A DNA stretch of 64,000 bases from Bacteroidia bacterium (lineage in GTDB: Bacteria > Bacteroidota > Bacteroidia > J057), in NCBI GenBank assembly GCA_033391075.1, contig JAWPMV010000001.1:3348001-3412000 (forward strand), in the 5' to 3' direction. Both the position numbers and the translations under genes were made by a program. A model generated the notes under the pieces. The model saw only the letters and a program-made list of their open reading frames with translations, searched no databases and was not told the DNA's origin. Every line of letters begins with the position of its first letter. The first letter of the stretch is position 1. Of this stretch, positions 2,722 through 29,460 are shown piece after piece.

Positions 2722-5709
2722 TCAGGGGGCTTGTTGAAGAAAGGCCAGCAGATCGGCTAAATCCTCAGGAGAAAGTCCTTCTTCCAGGCCTTCCGGCATG
2801 AGAGAAATCCCCAAAGAGCTTAGTTTTTCTATGTTTTTCTTGGCAATCAATTCTTCTTTGCCACCTGTCATCCTTAGCCTCAATTCTTCATCATTTTCAG
2901 AATAAATAATCCCTGTATAGATATTCCCGTCTTTGGTCCGAATACTATGGTTGAGGTATTTGGTATCTACCGCTGCATTGGGGTCCAGAATATCGTGTAA
3001 TAGAGACTCTTTACTCTTGCGATTTATTTCCGTCAGTACCGGACCGACTTCCTTACCCATTTCGCCATATTGATGACAAGTAGAGCAAAGCAATTCAAAT
3101 TGCTCTTCTCCTTTGTGAATATCTCCGGCTATTCCCAGTGCAGGTCTCATCTTTTCCATAGCTTCTTTTCTTTGCAATACACCAGCATCTGTAAACAAAG
3201 CTTCTGCTCTTGCTTTTACCTTATCATCCTCTGACCAAAGCAATACCCTCCGTCTTTCCAGATCAAGATTCAGTTCTCCCGGATTTACTTTCTTCTCTTC
3301 TAAAGCTGTAAGTAGCAGATCATGATTGTAGGATTTGTACAACATGATGCTTCCGGCCATCTTTCGAGCTTCCGGTCCTAAATCTGGCCAAAGTTTTAAC
3401 AATTCAGCGCCAACTTCGCGATTATCTGAATTCCAGAGTTGTTGTAGGGCTTCTTCTTGTAGGGCGAATGGCTGGAGATTATCCAGCATGGCATATAGAC
3501 TTGTTTTTCTTTCCTCGAAATCACTCAGGCCCATCAACTTTAGTAGTTCCAGTCTTTCTTCTACAGACTTATTCTCATCCAAAATCTCCCCTTTCGCATT
3601 CGCCATCAACTGACGAATCTGCGGAGAAGTATTTAACTCAAAAGCCTTACGGACTTTACCACTAGCCTTTAAAATGCTGATATTCCCTCCCTTTTCCATA
3701 GCCGTCAGATTGGTCTCCAGAGCTGTTGGGTTAAAGGCCGGGCCAGCCTCCCAGTTATCAGCGATATTTTCGAGCAATTTGGCTTGCTGTTTCGGATCAA
3801 AGTTGGGCTTGGTAGCAATGCTTGTAAGAAGTACCTCTATTGCCATTTTATCTGAACTTCTAGCCAGCATTCGGCAAAGGGAAAGCAAAGCCTCCAGATT
3901 ATTTTCGGATAAAGATTTTGGATGATGTTCCAGCAATCGCCGCGCAAAAGTCAGCGGTTGTTTTTTCATAGTAGTCGCCGCTGCAATGGCTGTCCATTTA
4001 TCGGCCTCTTTCTGCTCAAGCATATGTTGAAGGCCGTAAAATATTTCTCGGGCAAAAGAAGCAAAATACTCATCGGGAATTTGTCCTAATGCAAGGGCTG
4101 CACGCATCCTTACCCGAGGGTGCTCATCTTTGCATAGTTCTATGATACTTTTTGCGAGTTCGGGATGGTAGGCCAAATGTTCTTCACTGGCTCGGAGGGC
4201 ATTTTCCCGAACCCCTGCAACTTTATCTGTAAACAAGCCCTCCAGATCATCGACCTCCAGGGCTTTCAGACCTTCAAGCGTCCACATTGCATGCATACGT
4301 CCAAAAGGAGAAGAAGCATGTTTCAGGGCTTCCTTTAATGCCGGAACCAGGTCTTTCATTTGCTTTTCCACAATTAGTCTCTGGGCAGTCAAACGAGTCC
4401 ATTGGTTTTCATGTGAAAGCCCATCCAGGAGGGAATTTGGGTCTGCTGACTCAAAGCTAACAGCCTGAGGAAGCTCTTTAGCTCGGGGACGAATCCGATA
4501 TATCCTGCCATCTTTTTTCCCCGCAGCCAAATCCATCTTCTCCTCTAATTCATCCGGTATCCATTCCGGATGCTCTATCACTTCCCTATGCATATCCAGT
4601 ACATATAAAGAACCATCGGGTCCCGTACTTAAATTCACAGGACGGAAAGCCCGATCTGTAGAAGCCAGAAATTCTACTTTATCCCGATTTCTGGAAGCTG
4701 TAGAAATCGCGCCCTCATCGGAGAGCACATCCATATGGATGAGATTGAGAACAACATCCGCTACAAATAGATTATTATTAAATCCTTTGGGAAAGGCATT
4801 TCCTCCATAAAAACTAATCCCACATGAACCCGAAAAATAGCCAGACTGTTCGGGATGATTGACACGAGTGTCCTGCTCTCCAATCGGATAAATCCTAGAC
4901 AAACCATTTTCCTCATGATCCGAAATGATATTCAGGCTATGCGAAGTCGATACCGGTAGACCCTCCAGATATTTCCCTTGAAAAACCAATTGAGAAACAT
5001 GCTCGAGATTATGGGTTTCGTACATCCGCCCCCAATTGTCAAAAGCCAATTCAAAGCCTCCTGAGGACTCTCCTACCCTTTCCATGATCTTTTTGTCCAG
5101 GTCAAATCGAAAATCCTCTCCTCTCATCTCCAGGGATTTATCTGCTTGCCCCACAAAATAAGGTTTACCTGAATTTCCTCCATTTGCTGCGTATATCCAG
5201 TTATCCAGGCCATAGGTCAAGCCATTGTAATTATGCTGCAGATTGCCCACTCGAAATCCTTCCATCAGAATTTCCCTTTTTTCTGCACTACCATCTCCAT
5301 CTTCATCCTTAAGAAATAACAAATGCGGAGGAGAAGCCACCAGCATACCTCCTTTATATGGCATAAAGGATGAGGCCAGAAAAAGGCTATCGGCAAAGAG
5401 TTCTCTTTTATCAAAGACACCATCTCCATTCTCATCGATCAAATGAACCAGGCGACTTTCTTCATCTCTCAAGGGATATCCCGGCATTTCCAGGACATAT
5501 GCTTCTCCTCTTTCATCAAACTCCATATCGACCGGATCAAATACCAGGGGCTCCGTGGCTACAGCTTCTAATTGAAATTGAGGATGCAAACTAAAGCCAT
5601 CAGGTGCATTGGGAGTAGTGGGTGTTGCTTCCTGGCAGGCAGAAAAATTCAGGAGAAAAAACAAAGAGGCAATAATGCCAGGGAGAAACTTTGGGCGGTA
5701 GTAGTTCAT
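2722..5709 (-). CDS. PVC-type propeller / HEAT-repeat / cytochrome c lipoprotein
   Basis: This 995-residue protein has a lipoprotein signal peptide (lipobox around FSAC, Cys25). Residues about 35-410 form a PQQ/sugar-dehydrogenase-like beta-propeller of the membrane-bound dehydrogenase type (VFDPVDMEFDERGEAYVLEM; acidic DENGDG and DEDGDG loops). Residues 430-830 are HEAT-like helical repeats. The C-terminus has one c-type heme site (CSTCH, near residue 873) followed by the conserved GPVLTEI and LLHDILDPN segment of the Planctomycete-type heme-binding domain. The family is known mainly from Planctomycetes, Verrucomicrobia and Bacteroidota, and oxidation of sugars or alcohols is proposed. The gene lies 74 bp downstream of the hybrid sensor on the same strand, with no terminator between, so co-transcription is likely. 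The substrate is unknown. Confidence 0.88.
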   Translation of the reverse strand: MNYYRPKFLPGIIASLFFLLNFSACQEATPTTPNAPDGFSLHPQFQLEAVATEPLVFDPVDMEFDERGEAYVLEMPGYPLRDEESRLVHLIDENGDGVFDKRELFADSLFLASSFMPYKGGMLVASPPHLLFLKDEDGDGSAEKREILMEGFRVGNLQHNYNGLTYGLDNWIYAANGGNSGKPYFVGQADKSLEMRGEDFRFDLDKKIMERVGESSGGFELAFDNWGRMYETHNLEHVSQLVFQGKYLEGLPVSTSHSLNIISDHEENGLSRIYPIGEQDTRVNHPEQSGYFSGSCGISFYGGNAFPKGFNNNLFVADVVLNLIHMDVLSDEGAISTASRNRDKVEFLASTDRAFRPVNLSTGPDGSLYVLDMHREVIEHPEWIPDELEEKMDLAAGKKDGRIYRIRPRAKELPQAVSFESADPNSLLDGLSHENQWTRLTAQRLIVEKQMKDLVPALKEALKHASSPFGRMHAMWTLEGLKALEVDDLEGLFTDKVAGVRENALRASEEHLAYHPELAKSIIELCKDEHPRVRMRAALALGQIPDEYFASFAREIFYGLQHMLEQKEADKWTAIAAATTMKKQPLTFARRLLEHHPKSLSENNLEALLSLCRMLARSSDKMAIEVLLTSIATKPNFDPKQQAKLLENIADNWEAGPAFNPTALETNLTAMEKGGNISILKASGKVRKAFELNTSPQIRQLMANAKGEILDENKSVEERLELLKLMGLSDFEERKTSLYAMLDNLQPFALQEEALQQLWNSDNREVGAELLKLWPDLGPEARKMAGSIMLYKSYNHDLLLTALEEKKVNPGELNLDLERRRVLLWSEDDKVKARAEALFTDAGVLQRKEAMEKMRPALGIAGDIHKGEEQFELLCSTCHQYGEMGKEVGPVLTEINRKSKESLLHDILDPNAAVDTKYLNHSIRTKDGNIYTGIIYSENDEELRLRMTGGKEELIAKKNIEKLSSLGISLMPEGLEEGLSPEDLADLLAFLQQAP

Positions 5710-5783: not shown

Positions 5784-8700
5784 CTAGTTTTCAGATACAG
5801 ATTTTTGTTTTGCGTATTCTGAGGGATTGATACCAAACTGCTTTTTAAAACATTTGCGGAAATACTGGACGTCCATGAATCCCACTTTATATACCACCTC
5901 GGTAATTGTAAACGCCCTTTGTTCGATGATTGCTGCAGCTCTTTTGAGGCGAAGGGATCGGATAAATTCATTAGCTGACTGTCCCAAGAGAGCTTTCATT
6001 TTCCTATACAACTGAGATTTACTGTAACCTAGCTCCCTACAGAGTTGCTCTACCCCAAAATTGGAGTCAGAAAGGTTTTGCTCAATGATATTTACCACAT
6101 TTGACAAGAAGTCCTCATCCTTTGAGCGGGAATCAAGACTGGTCTCATCCCGCGACATAATCTGTTTATTCAGCAATTTGGATTTAAACTCATTTCTTTT
6201 GTCGATCGCATTTCGGATCATGAGCTTCAATTGTTTGGGATTAAAGGGTTTGGACAAATATTGATCTGCCCCATAACTCAGGCCTTCTTCCAAATGCCGC
6301 TCATTGGATTTTACAGAAAGGATGAAAAAGATAATATGGCAGGTTTTCTCATTCTCCCTAATCTTTTTACATAGTTCATAACCTGACAATTTAGGCATAA
6401 TGACATCCGAAAGGATAAGGTCAGGAATGGACAATTGGGTTTGCTCATAGGCCTCTGCTCCATTGGAACAGGGAATGATACGGTATTCATCCTTGAGAAT
6501 ATTGCAAAGAAAGTCTCGAATCTCCTCATTGTCTTCTGCAATCAGAATGATCGGCTTTTGCAGGGGATCGGGCCTTTTGCTTAGCCGGTGTTCTTTTAGG
6601 TCTTTTAAGGGAATGACCGCTTCTTCTTTTGCAAACATCAGCTCCCCCGTGGATGTCAGGATTTCCGTCTGATCTTCATCTACAGTGAGAGGTAAATGGA
6701 TACTAAAGACTGTACCTTTATTTTCTACACTACTAACAGTGATTTCCCCCTTATGCAGTTCAACATATTGCTTGGCAAGGTGTAATCCAATACCCGTACC
6801 ACTGGTATCTCCAGGAGCATTTTGGGAATTATACAGATCAAACACATAAGGCAAATTTTCAGCTTTTATGCCTTTACCCGTATCGGATACGATTATTTTT
6901 ATTTCATTTTCCCCCTTTTCCAGCTCTACGTTGATTTTCCCTGATGGAGGAGTAAATTTGATGGCATTGGAAAGGATATTAAACAAAACCTTTTCCATCT
7001 TATCCGGATCAAACTTCATTCGGATCGTCTCTTTGGGAAAATCTGCGATCAATTCGAGTTTTTGCTTCTTGGCATACTGAGCGAAATAATCCAGAACGGA
7101 ACGCAGGAAGAAACTCATATCTCTGTACTCCTCCTGCAGTTCAATATTGCCAGATTCCAGTTTAGAAATATCCAGGATTTCATCGATCAATTTCTGCAGC
7201 CTTTCTGAATTTTTCTTCATCAAATCCAAATGACCTTTGAAGGGTTGCAACAGTTTCATTTGCATCAACTCAATCAGGGGACTTTGAATCAGGGTAAGCG
7301 GAGTTTTAAATTCATGGGAAATATTGGCAAAAAATCGAGACTTCATTTGACTCAACTCTTTTACTTTATTTCTCTGAATCTGCTCCAGGTATAATTCATT
7401 TTTCAATTTCTCCCGATTGATCAGGATTTGATACATAAAAATGAGGAGTCCAGCCAACAGGAGGAGGTAGGTAAATCGAGCAAAATAGGTCCAGTACCAG
7501 GGATGATGAATCTGAATATTCAGGCTAACAATTTCCTCATTCCAGATTCCATCATTATTTGCTGCCCGTAAGTAAAAGACATAATTTCCAGGAGGAACAT
7601 TGAGATAATTCCTGAAATTCATTTCATTCGGGCTGCTCCACTCTTCTTCCAGAGGTTCCAGCTTGTAGGCATAGAGATTTTTATTGGCCTGGGAAAAATT
7701 GAGTTTGGCAAATGAAAAGTGCAAATCATTCTGTGAATGTTCCAATTCGATCTCTCCCTGAGGAAAAACGATCCTTTCCACTTCCTGGCTTTCTTTTTCT
7801 GTATCGAAGGATTCTATTTCTAATGAGGTAATATAAAATGGCGCTTCATGTCCATTTTCCAGGATTTCTTCATGCTTGAAATAATTGAATCCATTTATTC
7901 CCCCAAAGACCAATGTGCCATCTTTCCTCCTGAGACAGGCACCCATGGTAAATTCTTTATCCTGCAAGCCATCATATACATCAAAGGATTTGATTTGATA
8001 AGGCTTTTCAGCATTCAGGCAGGCAAGCCCATTATTGGTACTCACCCAAATTTTCCCTGACTCATCTTCAAGTCCTGCATAAATTACATTTCCAGGAAGA
8101 GAATCTGAGGTGTTTATCCTTTCTGCTACTTCAGTTTCTGGATTAAATTTATACAGGCCGGCCCCATTTGAAGCTATCCACAAATGATTTTTAGTGTCTG
8201 AAAAAAGATAATTAATATTGTCATGGATGTCAGCTGGTGCATGAGGACCGGCATAATTGGTGAGATTTATTATGTTTTTGTCCTCATCTAGTTCGATTTT
8301 ATCCAGGCCTTTATTTCTGTGTCCTATCCATAATGTCCCTTGCTGATCCTCTAATATGCTGATCACATTATTGGTACTGATTTTATTTTCAGAGGCACCT
8401 GCTACATAGCTATACAATTCTCCGGTTTTTGGAATAAAAAGACTTAAACCGGAACGGTAACTGGCAAACCAGATATTTCCCTCTTTATTTTGATGGAGCG
8501 TACGAATATATTTTCCGGGTTTAGGTCCATGATAGACCTTGACAAAGCTTTCCAGGCTTTTAAAAGTGCGGCTATTTTTCTGTTTGATAAACACACCTTC
8601 TCCCCAGGTAGCTGCATATACCTGATCCTGTGGATCTGCGATCAATCCTACAATTACTTTGTTTTTCAATCCAGGCAATTCACTCTCTGAAACATTTCTG

Positions 8701-9893
8701 ATTTTATGGTCTTGATCCATCAGATCAATCCCTCCTCCTTCTGTACCAATCCATAAATTCCCTTTGCTATCTTCTGCAAAAGCACTTACAAGGCCTCTGC
8801 TTATGGACTTATCTGTTCCACTGGCTTCTGAGACCAGCCCAAAACGATGTTCGATGGGATCAACTTTACACAATCCACTTTTATAACTTCCCACCCAAAT
8901 GGTTCCTGCCTGATCCTCGTATAAGGACCAGATAGAATTGCTATTGATCCCAAAATTATTTCTAACGTCTGTCTGGAACTGGAAAAGTTTGCCGGTAGAG
9001 TTTTGGCACTTGATCAATCCGGCATTTTCGGTACCTACCCAGATATTGGATTTAGAGTCTTCCAATATTGAAAGAACTACCACCCCTTCGAGCAAGTTTT
9101 TTAATTCGGCAAACTTCCCTCCTAATTCTACAATTTGGGAGTTGCCATTTTCATCCTTCTGCAATCGCCTTAATCCATCATTGGTTCCCACCCAAATCTT
9201 GCCAGTAGGACCTTTATGGATACGCCGAATAATATCGTCCTCCGGCAAATCGTATCCTCCGCTATGTTTAAAAAAGGAAATGAAGTCTTTGCGATTATTG
9301 TATTGACATAAGCCTCCATTAAATGTTCCAAACCAGAGATTGCCATCTTCATCTTCTACAATATCCTCTACATGATTGGCACTGATACTTTGCCCTTCAC
9401 GTCCATTGGCAATAAGTTGACCGATTTCCCCTGTTTTGCGATCCCAGAATTTCAATCCGCTGCTTTCGGTTCCTACCCATACGACGGAATCTTTACTTTC
9501 ATAAATGCATTGGACAAAAGAAGATTCAAGGGACTTCCTAAAAACCGGATCAATCTCCTCATTGGAAAATTTCTGCCGGGCAGGATCATATAAGCTAATT
9601 CCCCCACCGTAGGTACCGATCCAGAGTTTGCCCAACATATCGGTAAATAATGCCGAAATAATACTTTCTTCTAGTAGTCCCTGCTCATCCTGAAAAAAGA
9701 CCTCAAAATGTTCTCCATCATACCTATTGAGACCATTATCCGTCCCCACCCATAAAAAGCCCAATTGATCCTGAGAAATTACTTGGATTGTATTTTGTGA
9801 AAGGCGTTGAGAGGGCTGAGAAAAATAGGTAGTCTGTCCCAATGTGTAGAGGGAGCTTGCTAAGAATATGGATAGTAGTAGATAAAATTTCAT
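5784..9893 (-). CDS. Hybrid two-component sensor / AraC-family regulator (HTCS)
   Basis: A one-protein signalling system of 1369 residues. In order: signal peptide (about 1-20); fourteen-bladed-type periplasmic sensor propeller (repeats such as LWVGTDNGLNRY and IWVGTENAGL, about 25-680); Y_Y_Y domain (about 700-785); membrane helix (about 798-820); HisKA with His860 in SHEFKTPL; HATPase with DTGKG and GTGIGLHLAK; receiver with Asp1163 in LSDVIMP; C-terminal AraC helix-turn-helix (about 1260-1360). A ligand bound in the periplasm triggers phosphotransfer and DNA binding by the same polypeptide. In Bacteroidota such proteins normally control the adjacent SusC/SusD locus, here 470 bp away and divergent. 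I place the start at the ATG at 9893, where the signal peptide begins, rather than the upstream in-frame TTG at 9905. Confidence 0.95.
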   Translation of the reverse strand: MKFYLLLSIFLASSLYTLGQTTYFSQPSQRLSQNTIQVISQDQLGFLWVGTDNGLNRYDGEHFEVFFQDEQGLLEESIISALFTDMLGKLWIGTYGGGISLYDPARQKFSNEEIDPVFRKSLESSFVQCIYESKDSVVWVGTESSGLKFWDRKTGEIGQLIANGREGQSISANHVEDIVEDEDGNLWFGTFNGGLCQYNNRKDFISFFKHSGGYDLPEDDIIRRIHKGPTGKIWVGTNDGLRRLQKDENGNSQIVELGGKFAELKNLLEGVVVLSILEDSKSNIWVGTENAGLIKCQNSTGKLFQFQTDVRNNFGINSNSIWSLYEDQAGTIWVGSYKSGLCKVDPIEHRFGLVSEASGTDKSISRGLVSAFAEDSKGNLWIGTEGGGIDLMDQDHKIRNVSESELPGLKNKVIVGLIADPQDQVYAATWGEGVFIKQKNSRTFKSLESFVKVYHGPKPGKYIRTLHQNKEGNIWFASYRSGLSLFIPKTGELYSYVAGASENKISTNNVISILEDQQGTLWIGHRNKGLDKIELDEDKNIINLTNYAGPHAPADIHDNINYLFSDTKNHLWIASNGAGLYKFNPETEVAERINTSDSLPGNVIYAGLEDESGKIWVSTNNGLACLNAEKPYQIKSFDVYDGLQDKEFTMGACLRRKDGTLVFGGINGFNYFKHEEILENGHEAPFYITSLEIESFDTEKESQEVERIVFPQGEIELEHSQNDLHFSFAKLNFSQANKNLYAYKLEPLEEEWSSPNEMNFRNYLNVPPGNYVFYLRAANNDGIWNEEIVSLNIQIHHPWYWTYFARFTYLLLLAGLLIFMYQILINREKLKNELYLEQIQRNKVKELSQMKSRFFANISHEFKTPLTLIQSPLIELMQMKLLQPFKGHLDLMKKNSERLQKLIDEILDISKLESGNIELQEEYRDMSFFLRSVLDYFAQYAKKQKLELIADFPKETIRMKFDPDKMEKVLFNILSNAIKFTPPSGKINVELEKGENEIKIIVSDTGKGIKAENLPYVFDLYNSQNAPGDTSGTGIGLHLAKQYVELHKGEITVSSVENKGTVFSIHLPLTVDEDQTEILTSTGELMFAKEEAVIPLKDLKEHRLSKRPDPLQKPIILIAEDNEEIRDFLCNILKDEYRIIPCSNGAEAYEQTQLSIPDLILSDVIMPKLSGYELCKKIRENEKTCHIIFFILSVKSNERHLEEGLSYGADQYLSKPFNPKQLKLMIRNAIDKRNEFKSKLLNKQIMSRDETSLDSRSKDEDFLSNVVNIIEQNLSDSNFGVEQLCRELGYSKSQLYRKMKALLGQSANEFIRSLRLKRAAAIIEQRAFTITEVVYKVGFMDVQYFRKCFKKQFGINPSEYAKQKSVSEN

Positions 9894-10363
9894 TTTCGAT
9901 CCCAAACCTTAAGAAGCATATCTGGTCCAATCAATTTGAAATGAGGCTAACTAATATTCAAGTTGACTACAAGGCCAAATCTTTCTTTTATAATTTAAAA
10001 GCAGGTCAATAAAGCTATAAAAATAATACTTTTCTGAAATATGAATGATTTACCTTCCTCTTTTGAACCATTTGTCATGCATGGCATTTCTGCTCATTAT
10101 TTAACTTAGCTGTCCGATTCAGGTCTTGCAAACGATTTCGGAATGCTAGAAAGTTTCATTCTGAATCCATGTAAGAATTCATATATAAAAAAAACTATAA
10201 GAAGAGGATACTCAGGAAGGAGATTAAAAAAAAATCCCTAATTTTGATGACTACTAATTACGCTGCATTAAATTATTAAGGATACATTTTAAATACTGCG
10301 AACCCTCCTAAAACATTAATTTGGATAATCTACACTAATCATATAAAACTAATTACTACACTT
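9894..10363. promoter_or_regulatory. Divergent intergenic region between sensor and SusC
   Basis: This 470-bp AT-rich stretch holds no open frame worth calling. It must contain the promoters for the minus-strand sensor and the plus-strand SusC gene, and probably the DNA site for the sensor's own AraC domain. One candidate -7 box is listed separately. I could not recognise a clear direct repeat that would mark the regulator's binding site. Confidence 0.6.
10239..10246 (+). promoter_or_regulatory. Candidate -7 promoter box of susC
   Basis: TAATTTTG fits the Bacteroidota -7 consensus TAnnTTTG and lies 117 bases upstream of the SusC start. No good -33 TTTG is seen at the usual spacing, which would fit a promoter that needs an activator such as the neighbouring hybrid sensor. 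Confidence 0.35.
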
Positions 10364-13540: not shown

Positions 13541-13567
13541 ACAATTAAAAACTACTCGAATTTAATT

Positions 13568-15325: not shown

Positions 15326-15350
15326 ATGATTAGTTTCCTTATATAAAAAA

Positions 15351-15382
15351 CTCAGGCTTTTCATTAAGCCTGAGTTTTTTTA
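15351..15382 (+). terminator. Rho-independent terminator after susD
   Basis: CTCAGGCTT (15351-15359) pairs perfectly with AAGCCTGAG (15366-15374) across a 6-base loop. Flanking A6 and T7 runs extend the stem and give the U-tract. It separates SusC/SusD from the CRTAC1-like genes and may act as a partial terminator. Confidence 0.9.
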
Positions 15383-15446
15383 ATCTCCTTTTGAGAATAT
15401 AAGAATCGATTGCATTTTTTGCTCTTTATTCAAGCAATACACCAAT

Positions 15447-18400: not shown

Positions 18401-18920
18401 ACCCAAAGAAGCCCAGGTCTCCCCTATCTACAATTCCTTCAGTTGGGATATCGATCAGGATGGAGATTTAGACATCATGCTTCAGGGTAATCGCTATGGT
18501 ACGGAGGTTTTTCAGGGCAGGCAGGACGCTTCCAATGGACTGGTCCTTTTCAATGAAGGAAATAAGGAATTTGTTTATAAAGGGAATAAAGGCTTTGTGG
18601 TGGACGCAGATGCACGTTCTATGGTGAGCATGCATACAAAATCAGGCCTCTACCTGCTCTCTGGAGTAAATGATCAAAAGCCCCTTATCTATGCGTTACC
18701 TAATCAGGAATCCCTAAAAGAAATCATTCCTGAAGCGGGAGATATTGCCCTCCTTATTCATTATAAAGATGGAAGGAAACAAAGGCAGGAGATTTATCAT
18801 GGCTCAGGCTTCCTTTCTCAATCCAGTACAAAATTTCTCCTGAATCCTGAATGGGTAAAAGAAGTGGAAATTATCGGCAAGAAAGGATCAACAAGAAAAG
18901 TGAGTTTATCAGAAAACTGA
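15447..18920 (+). CDS. CRTAC1-like FG-GAP/ASPIC-UnbV lipoprotein, copy 1
   Basis: A large surface or periplasmic lipoprotein of 1157 residues. The signal peptide MKYTYILFILFLGLNSC ends in a lipobox. Fourteen D.[DN].DG..D calcium loops (for example DLDNDGDLDYVV, DADGDGDLDLYV, DVNQDGWIDLIL) mark FG-GAP/VCBS propeller blades. They are split into two groups by an ASPIC/UnbV domain at about residues 505-590 (RGYLSSIEPSLHFGLG, then IRWPEG). Known relatives include animal CRTAC1; the bacterial role is unknown but is thought to be calcium-dependent binding. The start must be TTG at 15447: no in-frame ATG lies upstream, and the next Met is inside the first repeat. The gene leads a tight block with the next two genes, 10 bp before its paralogue. 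Confidence 0.9.
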   Translation: MKYTYILFILFLGLNSCSGPESEPLFRLVPIEKSNVDFINQIQETEEFNILTDEFMYNGGGIGVGDFNLDGLYDLYFTGNQVPNRLYLNEGYMKFRDITEEAGVGAADIWSSGVSIVDINNDRLPDIYVSATFKDDKEERVNKLYINEGRNANGVPTFSDKAIEFGLADTSYNTHSYFFDYDMDGDLDVFLLNDKLFSPRSTTDLNLLMEGGEATIDKLYRNNGDNTFTDISTEAGITEAGFGLGAAIFDANGDGFFDIYVSNDFISNDLLYINQRDGSFKNQIEDYFKHHSFSSMGIDATDLNGDGKSDLMTLDMLPENRERVKRTYAFQKFQFYDLMEQTGYLMQYNRNSFQMSNSEGRYSEVSEMLGVDASEWSWSVLFADLDNDGHKDLAISNGYPRDITDMDFTDYNSSVNSMMTKKEDLLNQIPIVKVPNYFFKNDGENSFIDKSEAWGISTPSFSNGSVVADLDNDGDLDYVVNNINDPAQIYENRSNTKKLGHSLRLYFSGEEGNRDAIGTQVKVYYDGKMVSGNLLPQRGYLSSIEPSLHFGLGEVKTIDSIFIRWPEGELSLVKEVDVSDNKELRLDKMRMNRFLRNWPSKEKSWFTSKKLRGLNFDHQEVNFYDYNFQGLLQRLHSREGPSMAVGDIDGNGWEDLIIGNGSRASTKIFKAQANGSFREDSLTDVRTSEDQGLLLFDADGDGDLDLYVGTGSTEFRKGSKFFHDKFYLNDGKGNFSLSQESIPQIPISTASVTAADYDNDGDLDIFLAGRIDPQNYPHATNSYLLENEGGQFRQVNEGKAPILNDLGMVSQGLWTDVNQDGWIDLILVGEWMPLSILINQKGSFNDKTEIPQSSGWWNSISGADLDNDGDIDYILGNQGLNNKVQTSLEHPLLIYAEDFDENGSVDPIIAEYQEGDYYPVHLKMDLTRQLVELRKRYSKYQDFASARMEDIFPPEKLKESKTYKAETFESAILWNHEGDFHLQSLPKEAQVSPIYNSFSWDIDQDGDLDIMLQGNRYGTEVFQGRQDASNGLVLFNEGNKEFVYKGNKGFVVDADARSMVSMHTKSGLYLLSGVNDQKPLIYALPNQESLKEIIPEAGDIALLIHYKDGRKQRQEIYHGSGFLSQSSTKFLLNPEWVKEVEIIGKKGSTRKVSLSEN

Positions 18921-18930
18921 TACGAAATCA

Positions 18931-21900: not shown

Positions 21901-22437
21901 GGGAAATTTGTAGCCAAAGTACTTCCTCTTGAAGCACAACTGGCTCCTATTCAATCTATGCTCAGCCTTGATCTGAATGATGATTCCTATCTGGATGTAA
22001 TTCTGGTAGGCAATGATTATACGGGCGAATTCTTTTCCGGCCGCTATGATGCATTCAATGGTTTGGTACTTTATGGAAATGGCAAGGGATCTTTCCGACC
22101 TGCTAATTACACAGAGACAGGTTTTTTGGTGGATGGAGATGCGAGGGCGCTCGCCACATATCCTGACCCTTCAGGAAATATGCGCCTGCTTTCCTCCCAA
22201 AATCGAGCTCCTCTCAGTTTCTTTAAGGCAAGTGCTGAGCAAGAGTTCGTCAAGCTAAAAGCCTTGGACACCTGGGCCGAATTCACCTTTGAAGACGGCA
22301 GCAAAAGAAGAGTAGAGTTGACTTACGGAAGTTCCGGGCTCTCCCAGTCTTCTCGTCATCTTTTTCTCCCGAAAAACTTTAGCAGCCTGAAAATCTATAA
22401 TTCCAAAGGCGAACTGAGCTATGATTCAGCCCCCTAG
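18931..22437 (+). CDS. CRTAC1-like FG-GAP/ASPIC-UnbV lipoprotein, copy 2
   Basis: A 1168-residue paralogue of the preceding gene with the same plan. A lipoprotein signal (LGLLGAC) is followed by seven calcium-loop repeats (DFNNDGLADIFF, DINNDGWKDIYV and others), an ASPIC/UnbV domain at about 510-586 (RGYISSVQSILFYGLG, IRWADG), and seven more repeats, with the blades in the same order as copy 1. The two arose by tandem duplication and have diverged widely. It follows copy 1 by 10 bp and overlaps the next gene by 17 bp, so the three are translated from one mRNA. The start is ATG 18931; ATG 18940 is also possible. An outer-membrane location is inferred, and the substrate is unknown. Confidence 0.9.
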   Translation: MVNMNRGIHILAIILLLGLLGACDQSNSLFKEVNGKKLGVRFVNSVGQNDVYNILTSEHLYNGGGVAIEDFNNDGLADIFFTGNLVENKLYLNLGDLDFVDVSESAGIAAPNNWCSGVSVVDINNDGWKDIYVSSTMSGNPDSRTNLFFINKGLDKNGNPIFEDQAKALGLADVGYSTQAVFFDYDRDDDLDVYLLTNQLEVRAPNKFFFKRKDGSAPNTDRLYRNNGDGSFSNVSREAGILIEGYGLGINVFDINQDGWLDVYVSNDYLSNDLLYINNQDGTFSNKISEYFKHQAHSSMGCDVADINNDGLPDIVSLEMLPNEMTRRKQMWGAPSLSKDQNSDKLGYEYQYMRNTLQINQGLGENGEVKFGDVSLHAGLYATEWSWAALFNDYDADGKKDLFISNGFPKDITDMDFMAFKSSTNLATNRQALLDALPEAKMRNFFYRNTGNLKFEDVSAKWGIEEKSFSNGAAYGDLDNDGDLDIVINNINDNASFLINQSENINYLQIALKDEHGGAKALGANVDIFIKGEIQSQHFMPVRGYISSVQSILFYGLGDQTEVDSIRIRWADGSYQVEGKQAGNQKIEINYKGEERKAKEARNLPFVEIQENLRYRQQEAPFIDFTVQMLLPKQYSRQGPSVSIGDVDNNGEEDIIVGGSSIDVSRLFLSKKGNFEQKNVETYDLILRQEDVGTLLFDADNDNDLDLYLVGGGSESEADDPNYEDRLMINDGKGNFSRAFRRIPLIKTSGSVVKGADYDKDGDIDLFVGGRFLPKAYPSPVNSFLLRNDFEGKDKPRFTDVGAESFPDLDKLGMVTDASWSDFDGDGWIDLLVIGEWMGPRFFKNNQGKFVDVTEASGLGSLVGWWTSLTSGDFDNDGDIDYMAGNLGTNSFYQASDSMPLYIYGKDFDGNGGFDAFMASSMGYEDGRIYPLHSWDEMQKQMNFLRKKFIKYEDYARSSITDLFDPEQLDAALVYKATHLRSSYFENQGNGKFVAKVLPLEAQLAPIQSMLSLDLNDDSYLDVILVGNDYTGEFFSGRYDAFNGLVLYGNGKGSFRPANYTETGFLVDGDARALATYPDPSGNMRLLSSQNRAPLSFFKASAEQEFVKLKALDTWAEFTFEDGSKRRVELTYGSSGLSQSSRHLFLPKNFSSLKIYNSKGELSYDSAP

Positions 22438-23983
22438 TTCAGGCATACAGAATCGATTGAATCAACAGTATTTCCTGCTGATACTTTTTTTGCTATGTCT
22501 CTCTTGTGAACAAAGAGAACAAAGTGAAAGAAAGTCTGTAGTCCATCCAGAGGGACTTGAATTGGCACGTAATCATTGCCAGTCTTGTCATATGCTTCCT
22601 CAACCCGGAGAGCTGGATAAAAGCACCTGGAGAAATGAGGTCCTCCCAAAAATGGGATTACGCCTGGGAATCAAAACCAGCAATACCAATTATCAGAAAG
22701 AGCTCGAAGCTCTTCAGCTATTTCCTGAAAGCCCTGCCCTCGAAAGAGAGGAATGGTTATCTGTCATGGATTATTTCATCGACAATGCTCCCCTCTTTAG
22801 TAATTCCTCTGCTTCAAATCAGGAATTAGCCCTCAACATGGCTAACTTCAGGGCCTCCGATGCAGGAATCAAGCTGACTCCTCTGACTACATTGATCCAC
22901 TTCGATGAAGAAAGTCAACAATTATTTATAGGAAACGCAACCGAAGGAAGCTTACACCTCTTCGATACAAAGCTGGAGGCTAAAAAGGTCTACCAGCTCG
23001 ATGGAGCCCCTTCCGATATCATCATAAAAGAAGAAGGGTATTATGTGCTCAGCATGGGCCAGGTAATGCCCCACGAAAAAGAAATCGGAAAATTGAGTTT
23101 TATCCCAAAAGCTGCAGATCGTACTGAGCAAATAAAGCACTTGATCACCGGACTTAAAAGACCCGTTTCAGCTTCCATGGCAGACTTGGATAGAGATGGA
23201 AATGAAGATATGGTCATTTCTTCTTTTGGAAATCTGGATGGGCGACTCCTCCTTTATCTGAATGTAAGGGGAAATAAAAGTTCACAAAAGGTCCTGAAAG
23301 TAAGTGCTGGAGCCAGTAAAAACATACTCCGGGATTGGGACAAAGATGGGGACCTAGATATTGTCGTTCTGATAGCCCAGGGCGATGAAGGAATATACCT
23401 GTTTAGAAATGATGGCCAGGCAAATTTTACAGAGGAAAAAATCCTCAGATTTCCTGCGAGCTATGGATCTACCCATTTTGAAATCCTCGATCTGAATGAA
23501 GATGGAAAAGAAGACATCCTGTATACCAGTGGAGATAATGGGGACTATTTTCCCGTGATGAAGGATTTTCATGGCATACGGATTTTTCTTCAGAAGGAAA
23601 ATGGAGTGTTTAAAGAGGAAGTTTTTCTCCCTCAAAATGGGGTTTTCAAAGCCCTCGTACAGGATTTTGACCAGGATGGAGATATGGACATTGCTAGTAT
23701 ATCTTATTTCCCTGATTATAAAAAGCGGCCCCATGAAAGTTTTGTTTACTATGAAAATCAGGGAAATTTTGAGTTTAAAGCCACTTCTTTTCCAGAAAGT
23801 ACGTCAGGTAAGTGGCTGACCATGGCTCAGGCCGATTGGGATGGAGATGGAGACCAGGACCTCTTTTTGGGTTCAGCTTTGTTCATGCGAACAGGAGTTT
23901 CCGCAGAAATAAAAACTGCCTGGCGAAAACATGCGCCTCCTTTATTTGTTTTGGAGAATATGACTAATGACGAGCAGGAATAA
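22421..23983 (+). CDS. c-type heme / FG-GAP repeat lipoprotein
   Basis: A 520-residue lipoprotein (lipobox LCLSC, Cys29). It has one covalent heme site, CQSCH at residues 53-57, with a possible methionine ligand in VLPKMG. A propeller follows with five calcium loops (DLDRDGNEDMV, DWDKDGDLDIVV, DLNEDGKEDIL, DFDQDGDMDIAS, DWDGDGDQDLFL). The first 17 bases overlap the end of the previous gene in another frame, a sign of translational coupling. It has no ASPIC/UnbV domain, so it is a related but distinct member of the block. The heme suggests that electrons are moved, perhaps from an oxidation done with the CRTAC1-like partners. That is inference from co-occurrence only. Confidence 0.9.
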   Translation: MIQPPSSGIQNRLNQQYFLLILFLLCLSCEQREQSERKSVVHPEGLELARNHCQSCHMLPQPGELDKSTWRNEVLPKMGLRLGIKTSNTNYQKELEALQLFPESPALEREEWLSVMDYFIDNAPLFSNSSASNQELALNMANFRASDAGIKLTPLTTLIHFDEESQQLFIGNATEGSLHLFDTKLEAKKVYQLDGAPSDIIIKEEGYYVLSMGQVMPHEKEIGKLSFIPKAADRTEQIKHLITGLKRPVSASMADLDRDGNEDMVISSFGNLDGRLLLYLNVRGNKSSQKVLKVSAGASKNILRDWDKDGDLDIVVLIAQGDEGIYLFRNDGQANFTEEKILRFPASYGSTHFEILDLNEDGKEDILYTSGDNGDYFPVMKDFHGIRIFLQKENGVFKEEVFLPQNGVFKALVQDFDQDGDMDIASISYFPDYKKRPHESFVYYENQGNFEFKATSFPESTSGKWLTMAQADWDGDGDQDLFLGSALFMRTGVSAEIKTAWRKHAPPLFVLENMTNDEQE

Positions 23984-24076
23984 ATGGGAAGAAAAATGAG
24001 TCTAATGCCTGAGAATTATGGAGGGATATTCAAACCCTCAAGAATAAGTAAAATTGCCTTAAAGAAGGATCAATTC

Positions 24077-26785
24077 ATGCGAATTACAACAGTCTTATTG
24101 GGATGTTTTTTATGCTGCTTATCTAGCATGTACGCCCAGTCCAATGGAGAAAGAATCAGTTTGACAGAGGGGCTTAAAAAACTGGAGAAGCAGTTTGGAG
24201 TCAGCTTGTATTATGATGCAGAATTTCTCCCCAAAAGGGAGGTCAATATGCCAGATGCTGCTGAAACTATTGAATCCTCTTTGGATGCAGTGTTGAAGAA
24301 TACCGGGCTCTCATTCATAAATTATCGAGATTATGCATTTATCATCGCTCCCGTAGATCAGATAGATCGCAAGTATAACCGCCAATACTTTGCGGAAAGA
24401 GATAGTATAAAAGAAAGCATTGCCCGATTTAAAGAAGAAGTGGAAGCTTTTAGTGTAGGAACAGCCGGAGCTACAGAAACGGGCGGCAGCTATACCATAG
24501 AAGGATTTATTACAGACGATGCCAGCGATGAATTTCTGGTAGGTGCGAGTATATCTGTTGAAGGAACAGGTAAAGGAGCCATCAGTAACGAAATTGGGAA
24601 ATTTAAGCTCAGCCTGACAAGTGGAGATTATGTACTCCTGATGAAATCCATGGGCTATGTCGACAGTCGAATTAAACTGACTGTTTTAGGAAGCGGAAAC
24701 CTGGATTTGAACCTCAGCAAAGAAGCCATTCAATTGGATGAGATCGTTATCAGTTCTGAGGCCCAAAACTCAAATGTCAGCAGTACAGATGTCGGCAGAG
24801 AGGTTTTGTCTGTGAAAGAGATGAAACGACTTCCAGCATTTATGGGAGAAGCAGATGTGATAAAAACGCTGCTTTTGCTACCTGGAGTGAGTTCTGTGGG
24901 AGAAGGAGCAGGAGGATTAAATGTGAGGGGAGGAAATGTTGATCAGAATCTGGTGATGCAAGATGGTATGTATCTTTTCAATACTTCTCATGTATTAGGT
25001 TTGTTCTCTTTATTCAATCCCGATGTAGTGAACAAGGTTGATTTATATAAAGGAAGCATGCCTGCTCGATATGGAGGTAGATTATCCTCTATCCTGGATG
25101 TAGAACTCAAAGAAGGAAATTATCAGAAATTTACGGGAAAAGGAGGTCTCGGTCTGGTCTCCAGTCGTCTTACCCTGGAAACTCCTATCCAAAAAGGGAA
25201 AAGCTCCATCATTGTCGGTTCCCGTTTTTCTATTTCAGATTACCTTTTTGATGTGATTGAAATTGCCGAAATCCAGGAAAGCTCGGCCTTCTTTTATGAT
25301 ACCAATGCAAAATTTACCCAAAGATTTGGGGATAAGGGCAAACTGAGCCTGAGTGGATACTATAGCCAGGATAGATTCAAGTTTGACCAGGAATTTGATT
25401 TCAGGTGGAAAACCAGAGGCGTGAATGCCAATTTCAATTACCTTTTCTCCAATACCTTTTCTTTCAATCTTGAGGCAGTCTATAGTTTATATGAAAGTAG
25501 CTGGACAGAGGAAAATTCCAATCGGGCCTTTTTATTGGAAAATGGCATCAACTACCTGAAAGTAAGGCCAGAGATAAATCTGAGCATTGGAGATTTGCAT
25601 AATCTAAATGCCGGGATAGAATTCAATAATTATGAAGTTGATCCGGGAGCAATAAGTCCCCTCAATGCTTCTTCCACGACCATTGCCAAAGATGTTCCGG
25701 ATGAGCAGGGAAGAGACATTGCTCTATACCTCAATGATGAATTTGCCCTTACGGATCAACTTTCCTTAAACCTGGGTCTGAGGTATGTATACTATCAAAG
25801 TCTGGGGCCGGGAGAGGTTTCTCTTTATGCTGAAGGAGTAGCTCGTTTGCCTGAAGCTGAAATTGGAACAGTCAATTATGGGGATGGTGAATTGATTACC
25901 AGCTATTCAGGCCTGGAACCAAGGGCTTCCCTTAGATTTAGTTTTGATGAAACTGCTTCTATCAAAATGAGCTATAATCGCACCCAGCAATTTATCAATC
26001 AGCTTTCAAATACAACAGCCGTATCTCCCGTGGATATTTGGCAATTGAGCAATACTTATATTGAACCTCTTCGAGCCAATAACTATTCCTTTGGTTTCTT
26101 TAAAAACTTTATCAGCAATACCTGGGAGAGTTCGCTGGAGGTCTTTTTCCGGGATATCGATAACCTGATTGAATATAGGGACCTGGCCAATCTTCTCGTA
26201 AACGATCAGTTGGAAACGGAGATCCTTTCCGGGATAGGGAGAAGCTATGGAGCCGAATTTTCTCTGAGGAAAAATAAAGGCCGCCTGACAGGTTGGCTGG
26301 GCTATACCTACTCACGAACAGAAAGAAAAACCGAGGGAGAATTCATCGAAGAATCGATCAATAATAATGAGTGGTTTTTATCAAACTACGACAGGCCTCA
26401 TGATATCAGTTTTGTCCTGACTTTCCAGGCCAATAAGAAGAATCATTTCGGACTAAATTTTGTCTATAGTTCCGGTCGCCCCATTACGGCTCCGGCAGCT
26501 AGTTTTAGTGTAGGGAATGCATTGAATGTCCCTATTTATTCTGAAAGAAATAGCATCAGGATTCCCGCCTATCACCGCCTGGATTTCTCTTATACCGTTG
26601 GACAAAGTCATAAGAAAGAACAATTGTGGCGAAGTAGCTGGACCTTTGGCGTGTTCAATGTTTATGGTCGTAGAAATCCTTTTACTGTCTTTTTCACCCA
26701 GGATGCAGCCGCTCCCCCTCAGGCAAACAGACTTTCTGTATTGGGGAGCATCATTCCTTCTATCACCTATAATTTTAGTTTCTAA
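24077..26785 (+). CDS. TonB-dependent receptor with N-terminal STN domain
   Basis: A 902-residue outer-membrane receptor. Counting from the chosen start, a signal peptide (MRITTVLLGCFLCC... ending at YAQ) leads to an STN-like domain (about 25-105; LTEGLKKLEKQFGVSLYY), a carboxypeptidase-regulatory-like domain (about 140-220), a plug (LPAFMGEADVIKTLLLLPGVSSVGEG, split here by length; NVRGGNVDQNLVMQDG) and a barrel ending in YNFSF. The frame also opens at an ATG at 23984, directly after the previous stop, but the signal peptide begins at 24077, which has AGGA upstream. STN domains often talk to an anti-sigma factor (FecR), yet no FecR or ECF sigma gene is near. It is followed with a 1-base overlap by its usual DUF4249 partner. 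Confidence 0.92.
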   Translation: MRITTVLLGCFLCCLSSMYAQSNGERISLTEGLKKLEKQFGVSLYYDAEFLPKREVNMPDAAETIESSLDAVLKNTGLSFINYRDYAFIIAPVDQIDRKYNRQYFAERDSIKESIARFKEEVEAFSVGTAGATETGGSYTIEGFITDDASDEFLVGASISVEGTGKGAISNEIGKFKLSLTSGDYVLLMKSMGYVDSRIKLTVLGSGNLDLNLSKEAIQLDEIVISSEAQNSNVSSTDVGREVLSVKEMKRLPAFMGEADVIKTLLLLPGVSSVGEGAGGLNVRGGNVDQNLVMQDGMYLFNTSHVLGLFSLFNPDVVNKVDLYKGSMPARYGGRLSSILDVELKEGNYQKFTGKGGLGLVSSRLTLETPIQKGKSSIIVGSRFSISDYLFDVIEIAEIQESSAFFYDTNAKFTQRFGDKGKLSLSGYYSQDRFKFDQEFDFRWKTRGVNANFNYLFSNTFSFNLEAVYSLYESSWTEENSNRAFLLENGINYLKVRPEINLSIGDLHNLNAGIEFNNYEVDPGAISPLNASSTTIAKDVPDEQGRDIALYLNDEFALTDQLSLNLGLRYVYYQSLGPGEVSLYAEGVARLPEAEIGTVNYGDGELITSYSGLEPRASLRFSFDETASIKMSYNRTQQFINQLSNTTAVSPVDIWQLSNTYIEPLRANNYSFGFFKNFISNTWESSLEVFFRDIDNLIEYRDLANLLVNDQLETEILSGIGRSYGAEFSLRKNKGRLTGWLGYTYSRTERKTEGEFIEESINNNEWFLSNYDRPHDISFVLTFQANKKNHFGLNFVYSSGRPITAPAASFSVGNALNVPIYSERNSIRIPAYHRLDFSYTVGQSHKKEQLWRSSWTFGVFNVYGRRNPFTVFFTQDAAAPPQANRLSVLGSIIPSITYNFSF

Positions 26786-27834
26786 TGCAGTCAATATATA
26801 TGAGAATATTAGCAATAATTTCAGGCATAGGCTTACTCATTATGGGAGCCTGTATTGATATTATTGAATTGGAAACGGAGAACAAAGCGGACGGTATCAT
26901 CATTGTTGATGCAAATCTGGAATTGAGTTCCCGTTCCGCAACTGTGCAAATCAGACAAGCCGCAGCTTTCTCTGCCGGTCCGGATGGGGTGGAACTTCCC
27001 GTAGGAGGAGCAAGGGTTCGATTAGAGGAAATAGGAGGTACAGAATTGACTCTGATTGAAACAGAAACCGGAATATATAAAACAGATGATGCGATTGGAG
27101 AAGCAGGTAAATCCTACCAATTATTTATAGAAGTCAATGGAGAAAGCTATGAATCTAAAATTGAAGTAATGCCTGAAAGGGTCCCCTTTGATTTTATAGA
27201 TCATGTACAACGCCTTGAAAGTTTCAACAATTCACAGGGCAATATTGAAACGCAGGAGGTAGTTGCAATTCGATCTACCACTGACTTACCCAATAATGGA
27301 GAAGGAATCTTTTTGCGTTACCGGGCCTCAGGAGTTTACCAGTTCAATGAACGGGTAAGTATCAACGATAAGATTTGCTATGTTCCAGAAAGAATTGATA
27401 ACAATCAGCTCACCATTATTAATGGTTCCAGTCTGAATAATGGCGCACTCAATCAACAGGAATTTCTACTCAAAAGAGTAGATAGCAGGCTGGCAAAACG
27501 TTACTGCTTTACCCTTGTTCAAATATCTATTACCGAAAATGAATACAATTTCTGGACAGCTATAGAAGATGAATTTGACCGTACGGGAGATATCTTCGAG
27601 ACTCCTCCCGCCAAAATCAATGGAAATATCCTCAATACAGTTAATACCAAAAACGATATCATTGGCCTTTTCTCAGTTACGGTCGCAGATTCCGCCAAAT
27701 ATGTGATTACAGGATCAGATGTAGGTTTTAGTAGAGGCCCCTGTGAAGGATTCCCGCCACCTGCTCAAGGTTCTCCTTGCTACAATTGTCTACTTATTCA
27801 AAATTCTTCCTATCAGGAACCTGATTGTTTCTAA
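26785..27834 (+). CDS. DUF4249-family lipoprotein
   Basis: A 349-residue lipoprotein whose signal peptide ends at MGAC, followed by the DUF4249 plan: an N-terminal beta-sandwich with IIIVDANLELSS, VPVGGARVRLEE-like and GKSYQLFIEV segments, then a second beta domain. The C-terminus holds a cysteine-rich tail (GPCEGFPP, SPCYNC, PDCF). DUF4249 proteins occur almost only beside TonB-dependent receptors of this type and are presumed surface partners that help capture the ligand. The start ATG shares its A with the stop TAA of the receptor. ATG 26800 is an alternative start that would give a tighter signal peptide. Confidence 0.88.
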   Translation: MQSIYMRILAIISGIGLLIMGACIDIIELETENKADGIIIVDANLELSSRSATVQIRQAAAFSAGPDGVELPVGGARVRLEEIGGTELTLIETETGIYKTDDAIGEAGKSYQLFIEVNGESYESKIEVMPERVPFDFIDHVQRLESFNNSQGNIETQEVVAIRSTTDLPNNGEGIFLRYRASGVYQFNERVSINDKICYVPERIDNNQLTIINGSSLNNGALNQQEFLLKRVDSRLAKRYCFTLVQISITENEYNFWTAIEDEFDRTGDIFETPPAKINGNILNTVNTKNDIIGLFSVTVADSAKYVITGSDVGFSRGPCEGFPPPAQGSPCYNCLLIQNSSYQEPDCF

Positions 27835-27840
27835 AAAATT

Positions 27841-29460
27841 ATGCGAATTACACTGATCATTTTATTCAGCTTTCTCTTAAGCAATCTTAGTGCGCAGCAA
27901 CGCTTGACGGTTCTTACTGACAAGGGTTTTTACAGCAGTGGAGAAAAGATGGGGGTAACCATCCAGAATAATTCCGGAGGAGAAAATGAGATTGTTTATC
28001 TCGAACTCCTGGATAAAAATTCTACCGTAATCCAACGAATAACAACGCGTTCAGATGGGAGATTGGCTTCCGCAATTATAGATATACCCCTCGAATGGAA
28101 AAGCGATTGGTACCTCTTGCGAGCCTTCAATCTGTGGGTCCCAAATATGGAAATCAAAGATATGGGAATCCATGTAGTACCGATTTACAGTGAATTTGAC
28201 GAAAGCTCTTCGAATATGGAAGCCTTAAGTCCCGACCTCACAAAACTGGGCTACGATTTCCAAATAAGAGATGCAGAAGAAATATACAGCCAGGGAGATG
28301 AAGTTAACATACGGGCAGAAAACACTGATAATGAGCCAGGTACGAGATGGGAAGTATTGGTAGTAGATCAGCAGAGTTTCGATATCATGGGAGGGCTTTC
28401 AGTGCTCCGGCCCCATGTAAATCCAAAACTTTCACAAAAAAAGACCGAAGGAGGAGAAGCTCAAAACTCCCTTTTATATGTAGGTTTTGTCGGTAAAGCA
28501 GGGGACTTCAATCCCAATGGATTAGCAGCTATTTATATTGCGGAAAAACTGGACTTTACCTGGTTATCTATGGGTGAAGGGCAGGTTTTTGGTCTCTCAA
28601 TGGAGGATTTCAAGGGGAATATGAATGCCCAAATCTTATCTATTGAGGCTTTTGGTGGAGTCGATTATCCTGGAGTAGAAATGATTTCCCCTTCAGCTTC
28701 TTTTGAAAAGATCGCTTATAATTTTCCTGCATTGCCCTACCCTCCTCAAATTGTCAACTACCTGGAGAACGCCAGGAAAAGAAGAATTATCTCCGATATT
28801 TTTAATCAAACACAAGCTCAGGAAGTAGAAAAAGATTTGCGGCCAGAAGATTTGGCTTTTACCAAAGCCGATAAAAGTTACGCACCCGAAGATTACATCC
28901 GCTTTAATGATACCCGTGATTTCATCAATGAAGTGGCGACTTTCATGAGAGTCGAAAAAGATGATAAAGGGGAAAGTTTTCGGGTTATGATGGAAAGAAA
29001 TACTCTGGCCGAATTTCCGCCAGCCATGTTCATAAATGGGTATATGTTCACCGATCCCCAAGAGTTGTTTGAATTGAATTTGGATGATATTGAGCGGATT
29101 GATATCTACCGGAAAGAAAGAACCATTCTCAAACAATTCAGGACTTTGGGGAGAAATGGAGTAATCGCTATTTATACCAAAAATCCTAAAACAAAACCCA
29201 CTTCAGGTACACAAAGCCTACTACAGGGTTTCCAGGAAAATGATAGCAAGATTGAGTCTCACAGGTATTCTTCCGGCCCCAACTTGGCTTCTCGTCTATT
29301 ATGGGATGTGCGTCCGGAACAAAATGAAAATGGAGATTTGGTCTGCAATTTCAAATTGGGAGACGACCAGGGAGACTATGTCATACTCGTAAATAAATAT
29401 ACAGCCAAAGAAGGATTTCAATCCAGCCGAGTGCTCAAGGTCAAAGCTAAAAAGCCTTAA
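27841..29460 (+). CDS. MG2-like secreted protein with C-terminal plug-like domain
   Basis: A 539-residue exported protein (signal peptide ending SAQ) encoded 6 bp after the DUF4249 gene. The N-terminal part resembles a macroglobulin MG2 domain (LTDKGFYSSGEKMGV, WYLLRAFN). The last third resembles the plug of a TonB-dependent receptor (AMFINGYMFTDPQEL, DDIERIDIYR, LGRNGVIAIYTK) but lacks any barrel. Similar MG2/plug proteins follow TonB receptors in other Bacteroidota and are usually annotated as plug-domain proteins of unknown role. It may bind the receptor or act as a periplasmic gate. Confidence in the domain naming is moderate. Confidence 0.78.
   Translation: MRITLIILFSFLLSNLSAQQRLTVLTDKGFYSSGEKMGVTIQNNSGGENEIVYLELLDKNSTVIQRITTRSDGRLASAIIDIPLEWKSDWYLLRAFNLWVPNMEIKDMGIHVVPIYSEFDESSSNMEALSPDLTKLGYDFQIRDAEEIYSQGDEVNIRAENTDNEPGTRWEVLVVDQQSFDIMGGLSVLRPHVNPKLSQKKTEGGEAQNSLLYVGFVGKAGDFNPNGLAAIYIAEKLDFTWLSMGEGQVFGLSMEDFKGNMNAQILSIEAFGGVDYPGVEMISPSASFEKIAYNFPALPYPPQIVNYLENARKRRIISDIFNQTQAQEVEKDLRPEDLAFTKADKSYAPEDYIRFNDTRDFINEVATFMRVEKDDKGESFRVMMERNTLAEFPPAMFINGYMFTDPQELFELNLDDIERIDIYRKERTILKQFRTLGRNGVIAIYTKNPKTKPTSGTQSLLQGFQENDSKIESHRYSSGPNLASRLLWDVRPEQNENGDLVCNFKLGDDQGDYVILVNKYTAKEGFQSSRVLKVKAKKP

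Follow-up and report, generated by a model that had tools for sequence, protein, structure and literature searches.

The genes at 10364-23983 of this Bacteroidota sequence probably encode a SusCD-type outer-membrane uptake system whose surface partners are tandem CRTAC1-like lipoproteins. The usual view of a SusCD system is that of a glycan importer accompanied by SusE/F-like binders and hydrolases. In the window (the whole stretch of 64,000 nucleotides that was analysed) the SusC and SusD genes are followed instead by two genes, V1 and V2, for large proteins that resemble cartilage acidic protein 1 (CRTAC1), and the same SusC-SusD-V arrangement recurs in related genomes far beyond chance.

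Genes and domains of the block

The window comes from a Bacteroidia bacterium (GTDB Bacteroidota; Bacteroidia; J057), assembly GCA_033391075.1, contig JAWPMV010000001.1, positions 3,348,001-3,412,000 of the forward strand. Its genes between 2722 and 29460 are:

2722-5709, minus strand: PVC-type heme-binding lipoprotein, behind the sensor (TIGR02604 at 247.4 bits and TIGR02603, both over cut-off; one CSTCH at residue 875)
5784-9905, minus strand: HTCS hybrid two-component sensor, divergent (Pfam Reg_prop, Y_Y_Y, HisKA, HATPase, receiver and AraC-type HTH)
10364-13540, plus strand: SusC/RagA TonB-dependent transporter (TIGR04056 at 828.8 bits, cut-off 368.25; TIGR04057 signature)
13568-15325, plus strand: SusD lipoprotein lid (PF07980 at 148.2 bits, cut-off 23.1; PF14322; lipobox-like Cys22)
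15447-18920, plus strand: V1, tandem CRTAC1-like predicted lipoprotein (Pfam UnbV_ASPIC and FG-GAP; lipobox-like Cys17)
18931-22437, plus strand: V2, second tandem CRTAC1-like predicted lipoprotein (Pfam UnbV_ASPIC and FG-GAP; lipobox-like Cys23)
22421-23983, plus strand: H7, predicted lipoprotein with heme c motif and FG-GAP (CQSCH at 53-57; Pfam FG-GAP; lipobox-like Cys29)
23984-26785, plus strand: second TonB-dependent receptor (Pfam)
26785-27834, plus strand: DUF4249 lipoprotein, partner of the second receptor (PF14054 at 85.3 bits)
27841-29460, plus strand: g10, predicted exported protein (no family over threshold)

The genes from SusC to g10 form a co-directional run on the plus strand (10364-29460). 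H7 starts 17 bases within the end of V2, the receptor gene abuts H7, and the DUF4249 and receptor genes overlap by one base, so that the genes from V2 to DUF4249 look co-translated. A promoter and terminator scan gave 32 promoter-like sites versus 42.8 in shuffles and 24 terminator-like sites versus 16.2, and because of these counts it was left out of the argument on operon boundaries. As for family membership, a SusC of the SusC/RagA family stands beside a SusD, all six sensor and regulator domains of an HTCS lie within one protein, the gene at 2722-5709 has both TIGR02604 and TIGR02603, and a TonB receptor gene is adjacent to a DUF4249 gene.

An earlier sequence-only reading of this DNA had the gene order, the overlaps and the calls of SusC/SusD, V1/V2, H7, HTCS, PVC-type heme protein, receptor and DUF4249 right, together with the heme motifs (CQSCH at residue 53 of H7, CSTCH at 875 of the PVC-type protein) and the calcium loops (13 matches to D-x-D/N-x-D/N-G in V1 and 11 in V2). 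Its reading of g10 as an MG2-plug protein found no backing in Pfam, where g10 has no match up to E 0.01; there is one weak NCBIfam match (E 0.0035). It had also noted the lack of a glycoside hydrolase, and none was matched by Pfam, nor any lyase, among the ten proteins of 2722-29460, which by this measure do not make up a polysaccharide utilisation locus (PUL). A GH16 gene lies outside the block, at 41119-42315, 12 kb downstream. Its further conclusion, that the locus is no ordinary polysaccharide locus, applies to the window and does not extend to all V loci, some of which carry GH2, GH3-like or fucosidase genes.

The V proteins

V is a predicted lipoprotein of about 1,150 residues, a tandem duplication of a CRTAC1-like unit made of an FG-GAP propeller and an UnbV/ASPIC domain. 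V1 and V2 belong to the UnbV/ASPIC family (PF07593 at 72.9 and 56.3 bits, respectively, cut-off 23.4, with FG-GAP_3) and are 43% identical in alignment. The halves of V1 align with each other nearly end to end (hhalign: 486 columns, probability 99.9, E 2.3e-32), and V1 is therefore taken as a tandem duplication of a propeller plus an UnbV-like part. Its structure model (pLDDT 89.6, pTM 0.88) has murine CRTAC1 (9etn) as top fold match, with Z 36.9 and rmsd 2.6 over 468 residues at 21% identity; the next match has Z 31.3, and 9etn is the sole CRTAC1 entry among the matches listed. A profile search agrees with the fold (9etn, E 2e-28). Cys17 of V1, in its lipobox-like context, is invariant in 40 aligned rows.

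Like CRTAC1, V has an FG-GAP propeller followed by an UnbV/ASPIC domain; unlike CRTAC1, it is duplicated in tandem and predicted to be lipid-anchored, and no EGF-like domain was matched by Pfam in V1 or V2. CRTAC1 proper is described as having a calcium-binding EGF-like domain after UnbV/ASPIC (PMC10477339), so V is called CRTAC1-like and not CRTAC1 proper. Residues ~1095-1157 of V1 form a C-terminal tail that resembles a second UnbV domain; it is present also in V2 and some relatives and absent from shorter forms. Much longer UnbV/FG-GAP open frames (~1,900-2,700 residues) occur elsewhere in the home genome, away from SusCD (L071, L074, L075).

Conservation of the SusC-SusD-V arrangement

A scan of genome contigs yielded 537 confirmed V loci, of which the best 80, selected by V similarity, were compared. 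In 53 of these best 80 SusC, SusD and V are contiguous on the same strand, with one to three V copies per unit and a median SusD-to-V gap of 97 bases (53 pairs). The contiguous order is absent from the other 27 of the best 80: 15 have SusC or SusD elsewhere in the locus and 12 have none, several being cut by a contig end. For the proteins of neighbour cluster 13, among them those from loci L068 and L072 of the home genome, the assignment to SusD is by position and similarity; those of cluster 5 are presumably sulfatases. One locus (L147), where V adjoins a haloperoxidase homologue and has SusC and SusD in its neighbourhood, comes from a metagenome-assembled genome labelled Gemmatimonadetes, a record named outside Bacteroidota, which may reflect gene transfer or a binning error.

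Because the 80 loci had been chosen by V, a second genome set was drawn without regard to SusD. Leaving aside the home genome, at least 20 of 99 genomes of the phylum, with up to 7 candidates scored in each, have a V match over 900 bits. In these, a same-strand SusD_RagB match precedes 41 of 60 long V genes by no more than 12 kb, versus 0.73 expected (expected values here and below assume uniform gene placement), and V behind SusD was seen in 18 of the 20 genomes. The remaining 19 long V genes have no SusD match ahead of them. Counted from the SusD side in the same 20 genomes, 23 of 144 matches have V behind and 121 are V-less. In the home genome an UnbV partner stands behind 7 of 14 SusD_RagB genes, and 12 of 22 UnbV matches sit behind such genes. 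Four relatives have UnbV behind 5/23, 2/15, 1/7 and 0/2 of their SusD genes; together with the home genome, whose family they share, they have 15 linked SusD genes out of 61 and 24 linked UnbV matches out of 57. Genome G010 has ten UnbV matches, none of them behind its two SusD genes. Among 14 well-known control genomes UnbV_ASPIC was found in none and SusD in one, a Bacteroides. The proposal that SusCD and CRTAC1-like proteins form one conserved unit is borne out by the 53 contiguous loci among the best 80 of 537 and by the 41 of 60 placements versus 0.73 expected; the gene-order comparison that had been suggested as a check finds the order kept for SusC, SusD and V, and for H7 in a subset.

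Shared inheritance of SusC and V

The association is also seen in the phylogeny of SusC. On a tree of 105 SusC rows the V label changes 18 times versus 28.8 in shuffles (0/500 as low), and the same test on the 38 SusC of two whole genomes gives 6 changes versus 11.5 (1/500 as low). The label was given where V or a short FG-GAP gene lay within three genes after SusD; under this rule L055 is labelled on account of its H7, and so is the first SusC in L094 and in L133, where the V comes behind a second SusCD pair. SusC proteins under 850 residues, those without a following SusD and V-less rows with less than 3.5 kb of room were excluded, L181 of G003 being among the rows dropped. The window SusC falls in a 27-row clade with support 99, in which 25 rows are V-labelled and the remaining two (L112, L114) have V adjacent in divergent orientation. 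When the two whole genomes are considered, this clade takes 6 of 14 V-linked versus 0 of 24 V-less SusC (Fisher ~0.001). Distances of SusC and V are correlated over 63 loci (r 0.547, 0/999 permutations as high), a value that partly reflects shared species history and is below that for SusC and SusD (r 0.889).

The heme c protein H7

H7 had been assigned to the same system, and this applies to a subset of loci: the H7 family occurs in 10 of the best 80 of 537 V loci, with 12 copies, co-directional and downstream of V in nine of the ten and convergent in L118. All nine H7 loci that have a full SusC in the tree lie, with the window, within the 27-row SusC clade. A protein search, with up to 15 candidates scored per genome, gave at least 12 further H7 relatives, from related genomes or from other parts of the home genome. 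The copy in L064 is behind SusC-SusD-V, outside the 27-row clade; the one in L059 adjoins V, that in L055 follows SusC-SusD but no V, and that in L058 is convergent with SusCD. For the other eight of the 12 the fetched stretch, shorter than 7 kb in three cases, contains neither SusC nor SusD nor a long V.

Residues C53, C56, H57 and M78 are invariant in an alignment of 13 H7 rows, and our guess is that M78 could be the second heme ligand. In the model of H7 (pLDDT 83.0) the signal is followed by four N-terminal helices, and these by the propeller; no fold row covered the cytochrome part, and Pfam matched no known oxidase domain. Is H7 itself an enzyme? The best fold match of its propeller is aldos-2-ulose dehydratase (4a7y; Z 28.1, rmsd 3.5, 349 aligned residues, 9% identity), but unrelated propellers reach Z 25-27 and the sequence match is just E 0.099, and we do not read the match as function.

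Haloperoxidase homologues and other neighbours of V

The third commonest cluster of V neighbours is a protein of ~440 residues, with 33 copies in 30 loci when all clustered loci are counted. Six of these proteins, one of them from the home genome, were scanned and have a PAP2 domain. One matches the vanadium iodoperoxidase of Zobellia galactanivorans (4cit, 4usz) with E 1.1e-112; it also has a weak match to fungal vanadium chloroperoxidase in the region of the PSGH and SR-H motifs. Lys320, Arg327, His356, Arg406 and His412, which we take to be the vanadate site, are invariant in 26 rows of the family, and the neighbours are predicted to be of a halide-oxidising type. A homologue is found in 29 of the best 80 of 537 V loci, in 22 of them directly after V on the same strand, and is absent from 51. 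In the 20-genome set 9 of 26 haloperoxidase matches have a long V no more than 12 kb away, versus 0.49 expected, and all nine rank among the 15 strongest; 17 are not near V, and 7 of the 20 genomes with long V lack a haloperoxidase match at E 1e-20. The home genome has six matches, none of them inside the window, so the V genes of the window differ from such loci in having no haloperoxidase alongside; one of the six (L065:11769-13121) is by a V, directly behind another SusC-SusD-V run.

Other scanned neighbours of V include GH2 and GH3-like enzymes (L087), an alpha-L-fucosidase (L104), GMC oxidoreductases (L094, L124), a homologue of gluconate-2-dehydrogenase subunit 3 (L156), xylose-isomerase-like barrels (L094, L156) and thioredoxin-like proteins (L094, L104). 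Judged by these predicted families, the small hand-picked sample leans to sugars and redox chemistry. A lipoprotein-like protein of ~190 residues (cluster 6) stands beside V in ten loci, for instance L157:9441-10004; the one copy scanned had no Pfam match.

Limits of the system

The sequence-only reading had treated the whole block 2722-29460 as one system. We reject this because the HTCS, the PVC-type heme protein and DUF4249 are rare in V loci, being found in 4, 3 and 1, respectively, of the best 80 of 537. From its position the HTCS likely regulates the locus, without being a conserved member of it, and it is doubtful that the PVC-type heme protein belongs to the unit. The second receptor is co-directional and likely co-transcribed, and is a separate transporter module. 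Receptor/DUF4249 is described as a transporter pair in its own right (PMC11003636), and the window receptor (23984-26785) and DUF4249 protein (26785-27834) are like the BT2172-BT2173 pair of that source. Unlike BT2172-BT2173, the window pair follows a SusCD-V-H7 run, of which it is not a conserved part in V loci.

Several genes outside the block are also of note. A protein with Effector-associated domain 11, a domain of conflict and defence systems, is encoded at 1722-2522 on the minus strand (PF19964, 46.6 bits), next to a gene without family at 711-1697. Downstream of the SusCD-V block, a plus-strand row of amidohydrolases, a beta-lactamase-like protein and S9 and M28 peptidases (29531-40480) looks, from its predicted families, like a peptide or amide catabolic cluster, and a protein with a metallo-beta-lactamase fold and an alkyl sulfatase dimerisation domain is encoded at 42367-43668 on the minus strand.

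Function of the SusCD-V system

Are V1 and V2 binders of an ordinary PUL, adhesins, or parts of an oxidation system? An HTCS next to SusCD is the classical PUL core, and this, the GH2, GH3-like or alpha-L-fucosidase genes of some V loci and the GH16 gene 12 kb downstream would fit a PUL with hydrolases elsewhere in the genome, in which V would be another surface glycan-binding protein. We regard this as less likely than the reading that we favour: the block has no CAZyme match, and CAZymes were seen in just three examples of a small, hand-picked neighbour set. This explanation overlaps the preferred one where V acts as a glycan binder. We think it improbable that V is an integrin-like adhesin or matrix protein, merely co-regulated with SusCD and without a role in uptake. 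FG-GAP/integrin and CRTAC1/LGI1 are indeed binding folds and V is away from SusCD in many loci, but the fact that V follows SusD so closely (a median of 97 bases over 53 pairs) and the co-inheritance of SusC and V over many lineages argue against it.

That V, H7 and partners are an extracellular oxidation system, modifying the ligand chemically before import, is in our opinion unlikely. The heme c motif of H7 is consistent with such a role, as are the haloperoxidase homologues directly after V in 22 and in the locus in 29 of the best 80 of 537, the proximity of 9 of 26 such genes to a long V (12 kb or less; 0.49 expected), the Zobellia match (4cit/4usz, E 1.1e-112) with its five residues invariant in 26 rows, and the GMC oxidoreductases in two scanned loci and gluconate-2-dehydrogenase-subunit-3 homologue in one. 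Against it, the V genes of the window have no haloperoxidase nearby (0/6 home-genome matches in the window), 51 of the best 80 of 537 V loci and 7 of the 20 long-V genomes lack one, 17 of 26 matches are not near V, and H7 has no known oxidase domain. Bolder, and more doubtful still, is the idea that SusCD with tandem-CRTAC1 proteins is a distinct uptake class coupling import to extracellular oxidation, in which substrate held at the surface by the propellers would be oxidised or halogenated ahead of import by SusC, either by a vanadium haloperoxidase or by an oxidoreductase linked to a cytochrome (H7 and partners).

The uptake system with CRTAC1-like surface partners is the preferred explanation, and V most likely captures the ligand for SusCD at the surface, the part taken elsewhere by SusE/F-type proteins or BtuG. 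Surface binders combined with SusCD are known from the levan and dextran utilisomes (PMC7618045). The window resembles these and SusCD-SusE/F systems, as described in that source, in its SusC barrel, SusD lid and co-encoded lipoproteins with an adjoining HTCS; it differs in that the partners are tandem CRTAC1-like propellers and the block has no glycoside hydrolase. BtuG is described as a seven-bladed propeller lipoprotein that forms the lid on a TonB transporter (PMC10404256), so that BtuB-BtuG vitamin B12 uptake, like the system proposed here, pairs a lipid-anchored propeller with a TonB-dependent transporter. As presented there, BtuG is a single propeller and itself the lid, whereas the window has a SusD lid, and V has a double propeller and UnbV domains.

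In the mechanism that we propose, V1 and V2 would replace SusE/SusF-type glycan binders as partner proteins. We infer that, as calcium-stabilised double propellers lipid-anchored at the cell surface beside SusCD, they contact SusCD, capture the ligand and present it; SusD would then close over SusC, with TonB energy powering import. H7 would be an accessory of one SusC subgroup, a small tethered cytochrome c on an FG-GAP propeller that may pass electrons to or from an oxidoreductase acting on the same ligand. Since GH2, GH3-like, fucosidase, GMC oxidoreductase or xylose-isomerase-like genes adjoin the unit in some relatives, we lean to a sugar-like ligand. Oxidation of the ligand at the surface, which the sequence-only reading had proposed, is hinted at by the haloperoxidase genes next to V in relatives and by the GMC oxidoreductases of a few of their loci; this support is circumstantial, and neither enzyme was found beside the V genes of the window.

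In the open-licence literature we found no description of SusCD paired with CRTAC1-like (UnbV/ASPIC, VCBS) proteins and none that ties the vanadium iodoperoxidase of Zobellia to TonB-dependent transport; a search there for vanadium haloperoxidase with SusD gave just a genome announcement that lists them separately. The branch of SusCD with CRTAC1-like partners is recurrent, accounting for half of the SusD_RagB genes of the home genome, and it would escape CAZyme-based searches. Its V loci could allow the function of CRTAC1-type proteins to be tested in bacteria, and the link between haloperoxidases and V is a testable proposal on the role of those enzymes in Bacteroidota.
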